Shown here: in pieces, positions 44,009-45,749 of the stretch
Layout of the letters: each line of letters opens with the position of its first letter
Position numbering within the stretch: position 1 is the first letter of the stretch
Origin: an uncultured Bdellovibrionales bacterium
GTDB lineage: Bacteria; Bdellovibrionota; Bdellovibrionia; Bdellovibrionales; UBA1609
Reading direction: 5' to 3'
Length of the DNA stretch: 64,000 bases
NCBI GenBank assembly: GCA_903833275.1
Contig: CAILEP010000031.1
Coordinates: forward strand, 1 to 64,000
Program-made: the position numbers and the translations under genes
The notes under the pieces: model-generated
Seen by the model: the letters and a program-made list of their open reading frames with translations, nothing else
Databases searched by the model: none
Told to the model about the DNA's origin: nothing

Positions 44009-44290
44009 GTGCATTTCGAATGGGATGAAAAAAAGAATCAGGTTAATATTCGCAAACATGGCATCTCATTCGAAGAGGCGCAGACCGTATTTTTTGATCC
44101 GCTCACGAAGGTAGCGCCGGACCCAGATCACTCAAAAGGTGAAGTGCGTTTTGTGGCGGTGGGTCACAGCGCCCGTCATCGCCTTTTACTAGTTGTTCAC
44201 TGCTTTCGTGATGATGACGAAATTATTAGAATCGTCAGTGCAAGAAAACTAACGGCCTCTGAACGAAAACAATATGAGGATGGATTATGA
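44009..44290 (+). CDS. brnT: BrnT-family toxin
   Basis: FEWDEKKNQVNIRKHGISFEEAQTVFFDP...RIVSARKLTASERKQYEDGL. Confidence 0.92.
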   Translation: MHFEWDEKKNQVNIRKHGISFEEAQTVFFDPLTKVAPDPDHSKGEVRFVAVGHSARHRLLLVVHCFRDDDEIIRIVSARKLTASERKQYEDGL

Positions 44291-44514
44291 AGAAAAATTA
44301 CGATTTAAAAAAGATGAAATGGGAGCCGAACCCCTACCTCAAATTACTCAAGAAACCAGTCACAATTCGCTTCGACGAAGACGTCATTGCGTACTTCAAA
44401 TCTCTTAGCGAACAAGAAGGTGTGCCATACCAGACTCTCATGAATCTGTTTCTGCGATTCTGCAAAGAAGAGGGGCTGAAACCTCATACAAATTGGAAGA
44501 AACGATCGGCTTAA
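44287..44514 (+). CDS. brnA: BrnA-type antitoxin
   Basis: Overlaps brnT by 4 nt; KKPVTIRFDEDVIAYFKSLSEQEGVPYQTLMNLFLRFC. Confidence 0.88.
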   Translation: MKKNYDLKKMKWEPNPYLKLLKKPVTIRFDEDVIAYFKSLSEQEGVPYQTLMNLFLRFCKEEGLKPHTNWKKRSA

Positions 44515-44705
44515 AAGCGTTCAAAAATTAAGAAAATCTCATTTTTCTACGCTAAGTAACCCCTTAATCCCGACCGGTTGATCTCGCGCCAAGAATTCCG
44601 CGCACAATTGATCAACTAGAAAGCACTCCGCCAGAAAAGCGGCGCTCGCATTGCTTCATTTAAATCTGTTTTGGGGTCTACCGTGGGTTCGACTACTATC
44701 AAAGT

Positions 44706-44850
44706 TGGCGGAGAGGGTGAGATGGTCTCGGCCATCCTGGCCTCGAGCCTTCGGCCTCGCTCGCGAATACGCGAGTCTCGCTCCGAAAGCGCATCGTGCG
44801 CTTTCGGTCGAACTCACGGTCTACGGCTCCGAAGTTCAACGCTCAATCCA
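44706..44850 (-). repeat. tRNA-Ser-derived repeat, copy 1 (tRNA 3' end with T-loop split by 84-nt hairpin array)
   Basis: 145 bp, one mismatch to 45395-45539; ends in TGGCGGAGAGGGTGAGAT identical to the tRNA-Ser 3' end (minus strand ATCTCACCCTCTCCGCCA). Confidence 0.85.
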
Positions 44851-44991
44851 ATGACTTTATATCTGAGTGTCTCGCTTTCGCCGCTTAAATCGTGTTTACG
44901 CACCTTAGAGCCGAGGGACAGAGAGCTACTTTCGAACTCCGCTAAGCCTTAGCGCTTTGACCATCATAAGGAACTAAGTCACAATTTATGG

Positions 44992-45354
44992 ATGGAAACT
45001 GATTTTTATGAACAAGGCTCCTTTTTATGCATTGATGGCCCAGCTAAAAAGGCTGGCAAAGAGCACGCTAACGTAAAAGTTTGCTTTGTATCCAATGATC
45101 CCGAACTTCTGCGATCCCTTCTCCAAAAACTTGCAGAAAGTGATGATTGTTATTGGGTCAAAATGACAAAAAAAGATCGTGATGGAATGTATTTAGGCCG
45201 GTGCTTTTTTACTACGGCTGATCGTGCCGGAGAAGTTTGGGCAAAGTACAAAGGTCATCCAAAGCTGATGGTGAACATTCAGGACGATGACTTCGCATCA
45301 AAGTTTAGAGAAATGCAATTTTCTTGGAAAGACAAGCCGGCGACGGAATTCTAA
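44992..45354 (+). CDS. Hypothetical protein (120 aa) carried between the two tRNA-derived repeats
   Basis: METDFYEQGSFLCIDGPAKKAGKEHANVKVCFVSNDPELLRSLLQKLAESDDCYWVKMTKKDRDGMYLGRCFF... Confidence 0.6.
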   Translation: METDFYEQGSFLCIDGPAKKAGKEHANVKVCFVSNDPELLRSLLQKLAESDDCYWVKMTKKDRDGMYLGRCFFTTADRAGEVWAKYKGHPKLMVNIQDDDFASKFREMQFSWKDKPATEF

Positions 45355-45394
45355 GTTCACCACTGATATCAGATATCGGATATCCGAATGATTC

Positions 45395-45539
45395 TGGCGG
45401 AGAGGGTGAGATGGTCTCGGCCATCCTGGCCTCGAGCCTTCGGCCTCGCTCGCGAATACGCGAGTCTCGCTCCGAAAGCGCATCGTGCGCTTTCGGTCGA
45501 ACTCACGGTCTGCGGCTCCGAAGTTCAACGCTCAATCCA
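45395..45539 (-). repeat. tRNA-Ser-derived repeat, copy 2
   Basis: Near-identical to 44706-44850. Confidence 0.85.
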
Positions 45540-45540
45540 G

Positions 45541-45662
45541 CCAAACTCCGAACTTGCCCCCAGACGCGACACGAGCCGCGAATGAAGTGAGACGTACCAA
45601 GCGGTACGTCGCAACGAAATGAGTGGCGAGCAACAAAGTATGGGGGCAAGTTGGGAGTTTGG
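45541..45662. repeat. 122-bp inverted-repeat element abutting the tRNA-Ser 3' end
   Basis: Terminal 22-bp inverted repeats CCAAACTCCgAACTTGCCCCCA / TGGGGGCAAGTTgGGAGTTTGG (one mismatch) with internal GACGTACC-aagc-GGTACGTC. Confidence 0.8.
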
Positions 45663-45749
45663 CGGAGAGGGTGAGATTCGAACTCACGAGACCTGTTAGG
45701 GTCTACTCGATTTCGAATCGAGCGCCTTCGGCCACTCGGCCACCTCTCC
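45660..45749 (-). tRNA. tRNA-Ser(CGA), CCA encoded
   Basis: GGAGAGGTGGCCGAGTGGCCGAAGGCGCTCGATTCGAAATCGAGTAGACCCTAACAGGTCTCGTGAGTTCGAATCTCACCCTCTCCGCCA; long variable arm, G73. Confidence 0.95.

Follow-up and report, generated by a model that had tools for sequence, protein, structure and literature searches.

Hairpin units carrying a displaced tRNA 3' end downstream of tRNA and tmRNA genes in Bdellovibrionota

The ends of tRNA genes are the main docking sites of bacterial mobile DNA, and the switching of elements between tRNA genes is an open question. The units described here share one structured core, which is found at many tRNA and tmRNA genes throughout a phylum of predatory and related bacteria and is joined to the 3' end of the neighbouring gene; such units form a natural series for working out insertion at the universal T-arm. 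The tyrT repeats of Escherichia coli (rtT RNA) also lie downstream of a tRNA gene and, like the units, include a copy of its 3' end. To our knowledge, they are confined to a single locus, and no multi-hairpin core of the unit type is known from them.

A displaced tRNA 3' end next to the regenerated target is the signature of tRNA islands (PMC4383910), and the T-loop is a known crossover site, for example that of phage Ms6 (PMC1762012). The units resemble tRNA and tmRNA islands (Islander; PMC4383910) in that a regenerated target and a displaced 3' fragment mark an end. However, they are tiny and without an integrase, a conserved folded core heads every displaced fragment, and one family is found at many tRNAs. 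Integron cassettes and their attC sites (PMC2727003) share with them a short site of two half boxes around variable terminal hairpins, a structure better kept than the sequence, and arrays with small genes, whereas the box of a unit is a tRNA T-arm, the acceptor is a tRNA gene, and an integron integrase was not found. Like REP/BIME and other stem-loop repeat families (PMC2267715), the units are dispersed intergenic hairpin repeats; unlike them, they lie at tRNA 3' ends in a fixed orientation, with target-specific ends and without a link to RAYT. The text of that survey of stem-loop repeats (PMC2267715) does not mention Bdellovibrio. The CsrA sponges CsrB and RsmZ (PMC5027483) likewise present CAGGANG in hairpin loops, but the units have about two loops each and are placed at many dispersed loci behind terminators. 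If transcribed, the units would be tRNA-linked RNAs of a new class, with a possible input into CsrA regulation.

Two units behind tRNA-Ser(CGA)

The window is a stretch of 64,000 nucleotides from an uncultured Bdellovibrionales bacterium, whose genome is called the source genome below. As the earlier note had stated, it contains two near-identical copies of a 145-nt sequence, at 44706-44850 (copy 1, distal) and 45395-45539 (copy 2, tRNA-proximal). They are direct repeats with 99% identity and one mismatch, their starts are 689 bp apart, and both are on the minus strand, that of the tRNA-Ser(CGA) gene. Copy 2 scored 87.5 bits with the covariance model R1 described below; copy 1 was found by the repeat search and by R1. 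The intact tRNA-Ser(CGA), the anchor gene of the locus, is at 45660-45749 (minus strand; ARAGORN; 58 bits with the Rfam tRNA model). On the minus strand it is followed by core A, a long inverted repeat with inner hairpins (45663-45540; repeat search, RNA fold z-score -9.0), whose arms at 45540-45565 and 45638-45663 overlap the CCA end of the tRNA by 4 nt. Next come copy 2, a stretch of 544 bp, copy 1, and a BrnT/BrnA toxin-antitoxin pair on the plus strand (44009-44514; Pfam), which is perhaps an older insert. The 544 bp contain a single sizeable ORF, on the plus strand (44992-45354), which encodes 120 amino acids; it is a possible cargo gene and belongs to no family in Pfam or NCBIfam.

Each copy, read on the minus strand, consists of a linker of 33 nt, the T-arm 5' half GTGAGTTCGA, an insert of 84 nt, and the displaced tRNA-Ser 3' end ATCTCACCCTCTCCGCCA. 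In copy 2, these parts occupy 45507-45539, 45497-45506, 45413-45496, and 45395-45412, respectively. The insert is the hairpin core, with P1 at 45472-45496, P2 at 45449-45464, and P3 at 45419-45431, as assigned from folds and covariation. In copy 1, the T-arm 5' half is at 44808-44817, the core at 44724-44807 (P1 44783-44807, P3 44730-44742; sequence and covariance model), and the displaced 3' end at 44706-44723. The T-arm halves were assigned from the sequence, in copy 2 with the match to the neighbouring tRNA, and the displaced ends from the sequence and a search with tRNA ends. In both copies, the GTGAGTTCGA and ATCTCACCCTCTCCGCCA pieces are exact matches to tRNA-Ser(CGA), the 18-nt 3' end having no mismatches; in other words, the proposal that T-arm halves identical to the tRNA are split by an 84-nt insert was confirmed. 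The CCA is kept and the acceptor 5' strand, the D arm, and the anticodon arm are absent, also as previously described, so that neither copy qualifies as a tRNA gene or pseudogene. The hairpins named in the earlier note account for the fold of the insert: its z-score was -7.1 as DNA and -4.2 as RNA, and none of 200 shuffled sequences folded as well in either case. In addition, the 5' part of the unit forms a hairpin (P0) in the DNA fold, in which TTGAAC of the copy 2 linker (45523-45528) can pair with GTTCGA (45497-45502).

Core A is a second array of conserved hairpins, enclosed in a long inverted repeat that is specific to its locus (window 45540-45663; also loci L003, L061, and L063). It occupies the place held by the terminator at other tRNAs, and homologous arrays follow tRNA-Val, tRNA-Met, and tRNA-Pro of the source genome. 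Just past copy 1, GGTCTACCGTGGGTTCGA on the plus strand (44675-44692) is a T-arm 5' half in the opposite orientation, perhaps the remnant of another insertion.

Structure of the family and its position at tRNA and tmRNA genes

A nucleotide search of the source genome gave no third full-length copy of the 145-nt unit. Since only two exact copies are present, a search by sequence alone would have missed the family. Weak partial matches led to diverged relatives downstream of tRNA-Val in the source genome and in other genomes, and R1 was built from five of them. The search for further copies and the covariance model, both suggested in the earlier note, thus revealed that diverged relatives are common: at E <= 0.1, R1 had matches in 35 of the 97 genomes of the order, and up to 17 in one complete genome. 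Within 74 aligned matches, 92.9% of the cells pair, a value that leans towards structure because the alignment was made with the model. The stronger point is that changes on both sides of a pair numbered 157, compared with 33 in shuffles, and the signal was lost when the partner strand was slid. The pairs of P1 vary almost only among Watson-Crick types, with about 1% G-U.

At tRNA genes (class 1), the parts come in the following order. An intact tRNA or tmRNA gene ending in CCA is followed by a terminator (core A in the genus of the source genome), a linker of about 25-45 nt that often contains a TTGRACT-like motif, a T-arm box ending in GTTCRA about 65-220 nt after the tRNA, the hairpins P1, P2, and P3, and, starting at the T-loop and running to CCA, the 3' end of the tRNA. 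P1 is typically CAAAAATNNCAGGANGNNATTTTTG, and P3 carries a loop of the AGGA type. The P0 pairing between linker and T-arm box is moderate and not universal: over 50 units, with G-U counted, its value was 13.06, compared with 11.95 (sd 0.26) for exchanged linkers. The T-stem halves are complementary in the window copy, often by only 3 bp in other units, and P0 pairing competes with them.

R1 contained T-arm letters; therefore, the link to tRNA genes was tested without circularity by a pattern of P1 only, which ignores the T-arm, in the named genomes with duplicates removed. Of the 44 sites found in Bdellovibrionota, 30 are preceded by GTT[CT]R, and 20 are found downstream of a tRNA or tmRNA gene on the same strand, at a distance of up to 350 nt (Ser, Met, Gln, Pro, Val, Arg, Glu/Lys, and tmRNA). 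None is upstream or on the opposite strand; all tRNA-linked sites are in the sense orientation, and the chance expectation is estimated at roughly 0.1 of 44. No tRNA gene was near any of the 15 matches outside Bdellovibrionota. These matches, from Treponema, Gammaproteobacteria, and Desulfovibrio, had a T-arm-like box in one case of 15, and they were not counted as members because the loop and the A/T stem are all they have in common with the units. In Treponema and Spirochaetaceae metagenome-assembled genomes, a similar hairpin with an A/T stem and a CAGGANG loop has neither a T-arm nor a tRNA, and in many cases another hairpin precedes it (L284, L285, L291, L292, L305, L308, L309, and L318).

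A unit accompanies about 11 of the 37 tRNA genes of the source genome, if decayed units at tRNA-Gly, Glu, Arg(TCT), Pro(TGG), and Asn are included, and the 3' end of each unit copies that of the tRNA beside it (Ser, Val, Gly, Met, Pro, Arg, Leu, Glu, and Asn). When the 3' ends of almost all tRNAs of this genome were searched for over about 15 kb downstream, with up to 3 mismatches, displaced ends were found solely in units (Val, Pro, Arg, Met, Leu, and Ser twice), and the control strand gave one match in total. The split T-arm is thus not the chance match that the earlier note had named as its refuting case. In 24 of 25 units, no other tRNA fits the 3' part better than the adjacent one does, ties with tRNAs of the same end being counted as half (KS p 2e-20). 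The 5' boxes are likewise neighbour-specific (p 3e-16); averaged over 32 units, identity on this side extends over T-stem positions 53-49 and is at background level beyond them. A target duplication with a fixed length of 31 nt (tRNA positions 46-76) was considered and rejected: several units of the source genome fit over 13 nt of the 5' side, but the 32-unit average is at background past position 49. It was also considered that the linker is an inverted copy of the tRNA acceptor. This was significant at tRNA-Leu of the source genome alone (p 0.006), and there is no general complementarity.

Rfam assigned only the tRNA at gathering score and nothing to the units up to an E-value of 5. No description of such units was found in the literature, and the literature on Bdellovibrio repeats contained nothing relevant. 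Plasmids and phages had no match, and viral contigs had one, without a T-arm. The family is real, more than chance, phylum-wide in Bdellovibrionota, and undescribed as far as the searched libraries show. It is best classed with the tRNA-end insertions, and a stronger claim would be possible if a recombinase or a function were found.

Turnover, cargo and the origin of the units

In genomes of the same genus, tRNA-Ser(CGA) and tRNA-Pro(GGG) have no unit, and unrelated DNA is found instead. A unit lies downstream of ssrA in 3 of 15 Bdellovibrio genomes, two of the three with the T-stem letters of their own species. At a protein-gene locus, the core is in a nested hairpin in two Bdellovibrio species, and most others that have the hairpin show the empty form GGACAGT/CCTCGCG, where the stroke marks the site. 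Behind tRNA-Leu(GAG) of the source genome (L239 256-735; G000, contig C22), two tandem units have their first 110 nt identical and their ends near-identical. Their central stems have largely different sequences that still pair, and the loops are nearly the same, which suggests that stems are replaced as blocks.

Besides the 544 bp between the two units of the window, cargo is seen at several loci. In genome G065, tRNA-Ser(CGA) is followed by a GNAT-like gene, a toxin-antitoxin-like pair (both by sequence reading), and then a unit. In genome G009 (contig C10; L141 1-5000), two near-identical units of the tmRNA type flank 4.4 kb, and four tmRNA 3' ends are found in 5 kb. The 4.4 kb contain membrane and peptidase-like genes, and the whole is an island array at ssrA. 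The displaced tRNA 3' end CCCCTACCA, adjacent to a unit of the tRNA-Met type, terminates an island with excisionase-like and tyrosine integrase genes in contig C20 of the source genome (G000; L111 8300-10800).

The tRNA is left intact, and downstream there is a second copy of its 3' end, which reaches from the T-loop to CCA and is headed by a GTTCRA box and a conserved three-hairpin core; an intact tRNA with a displaced 3' fragment of the same tRNA is what is looked for in a tRNA island. The units stack, as the two in the window do, and can be separated by cargo DNA. A small non-autonomous element that entered a tRNA or tmRNA gene at its T-loop and 3' end might have left the 145-bp unit as its footprint, a reading to which a probability of about 0.5 is given, and the units are probably the boundary marks of small inserted pieces of DNA. 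This mini-islet reading is ranked first because a displaced 3' end by a regenerated target is the tRNA-island signature and because units occur in stacks and on both sides of cargo. The mechanism behind the footprint is an inference: flanked by the T-arm box and by the tRNA 3' end, the folded core would be an attachment site that joins mini-islets and gene cassettes to tRNA genes, comparable to the regenerated targets and displaced fragments by which tRNA islands are marked, and an enzyme supplied in trans would recognise the universal T-arm. In the window, one islet adjoining tRNA-Ser would consist of core A and copy 2; a second, stacked behind the first, would comprise copy 1 and the 544 bp that contain the 120-aa ORF.

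Of the two origins proposed in the earlier note, tandem att-like sites at the T-arm are better supported, by the neighbour-specific ends, the stacking, the cargo, and the orthologous sites without units; no integrase or transposase belonging to the units was identified. There is no integrase ORF between tRNA-Ser and copy 1, the integrases of the source genome being elsewhere; its five tyrosine recombinases are XerC/XerD-like or of the island type, and one alone is near a unit. The other proposal, a SINE-like repeat derived from one tRNA, did not hold, since the tRNA-derived parts differ among units and the hairpin core alone is common. Against a mini-islet, the match of the 5' T-arm box to the neighbouring tRNA is unexplained by a simple crossover, the cargo in three arrays seems to be an insertion of its own rather than part of the unit, and the Bdellovibrio cores away from tRNAs (class 2, below) also count. 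Most units lie at a short and rather constant distance of 75-99 nt from the tRNA, with the terminator and linker alone between, as would be expected of a functional unit no less than of an empty islet.

A role as CsrA-binding RNA is a serious rival, although on balance somewhat unlikely. The unit would then be a structured small RNA, or a 3' trailer that arises when transcription from strong tRNA promoters runs on past the gene, with CAGGANG loops that may bind CsrA and act as scattered CsrA sinks or tie tRNA transcription to CsrA. The sites in CsrB are CAGGA(U/A/C)G in hairpin loops (PMC5027483); AGGA is present in P1 at 39 of the 44 unbiased sites (89%) and in 20 of 24 scored P3 loops, and every one of the 72 good genomes in the set, including those without units, encodes CsrA. 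The sense orientation of every tRNA-linked unit, the P0 pairing above that of permuted linkers, and the strong stem covariation are also consistent with an RNA. However, tRNA and unit are usually separated by an intrinsic terminator, candidate GGA sites number about two per unit, and the P1 loop of the window copies is CGA, leaving a GGA loop in P3 only. The distribution of units is patchy, and the almost wholly Watson-Crick variation of P1 suits structure at the DNA level.

In an integron-like system, the unit would be comparable to attC and would work as folded single-stranded DNA, the T-arm would be the equivalent of attI, and the genes between units would be cassettes. A regenerated tRNA, cargo, a half box with terminal hairpins, and a displaced end are all expected from recombination of a single-stranded attC with a double-stranded attI; the stacked units with cargo (G065, G009) and the rewritten stems between identical flanks at tRNA-Leu, where structure is kept more than sequence, agree with it. 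The geometry fits, but two defining features fail: there is no integron integrase, the five recombinases of the source genome scoring at most 110 bits against the TIGR02249 cut-off of 265, and the boxes are GTTCRA instead of GTTRRRY (R boxes RYYYAAC/GTTRRRY). Most units also have no gene, and the orientation of the ORFs is mixed. This reading is quite improbable. The wider proposal of a Bdellovibrionota-wide system, in which a folded attC-like T-arm site would insert cassettes into any tRNA or tmRNA gene as a platform through some recombinase, is improbable. In another reading, parts of tRNA genes were duplicated in tandem and are decaying without a function, and template switching during replication rewrote the hairpins. 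This could account for the terminators duplicated with the tRNA end at tRNA-Ser of genome G047 and at tRNA-Leu of the source genome, and for the unique yet perfectly paired outer stems of class 2. It is hardly credible: the same three-hairpin core and loops recur at unrelated tRNAs across the phylum, and decay would keep neither the core nor the pairing of its stems.

It should be added that toxin-antitoxin or similar genes repeatedly adjoin these tRNA ends (window 44009-44514; L060 after 860; L100 2700-4300; L184 after 1600). They include BrnTA (Pfam) and, by sequence reading, nucleotidyltransferase/HEPN-like, HigBA-like, and DUF4160-like genes; the tRNA-Gly unit of the source genome is directly followed by a putative nucleotidyltransferase/HEPN pair read in the same way.

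Cores away from tRNA genes

Many Bdellovibrio cores (class 2) are not at tRNAs and occupy the loops of long inverted repeats, which are often 20-40 bp, near-perfect, and unique in sequence to the locus. Because of this position, the core seems to tolerate or seek hairpin loops, the T-arm perhaps being a special case. The class 2 copies, one of which was gained in a loop, and the Y1 genes present in 64 of the 97 genomes are in line with a REP/MITE-like core moved into hairpin loops by RAYT or another Y1 transposase; T-arms, being hairpins, would then explain the link to tRNAs. This is very improbable. Genomes G065, G074, and G084, with 17 core hits, have no Y1 match at 1e-5, the positions of Y1 genes and cores do not coincide (8 Y1 loci are without a core), and the copy of the tRNA 3' end is left unexplained. 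A cognate Y1 gene flanked by the repeat was sought in unit-bearing genomes and not found, and mobilisation by RAYT was not supported.

Template switching is known to make stems that are unique yet perfectly paired (PMC8794818), and it could both make and mend the stems of class 2. In Bdellovibrio, cores within near-perfect unique inverted repeats of 30-40 bp were noted at L040, L049, L078, L079, and L099. At one class 2 locus, the orthologous arms differ among species yet remain paired.
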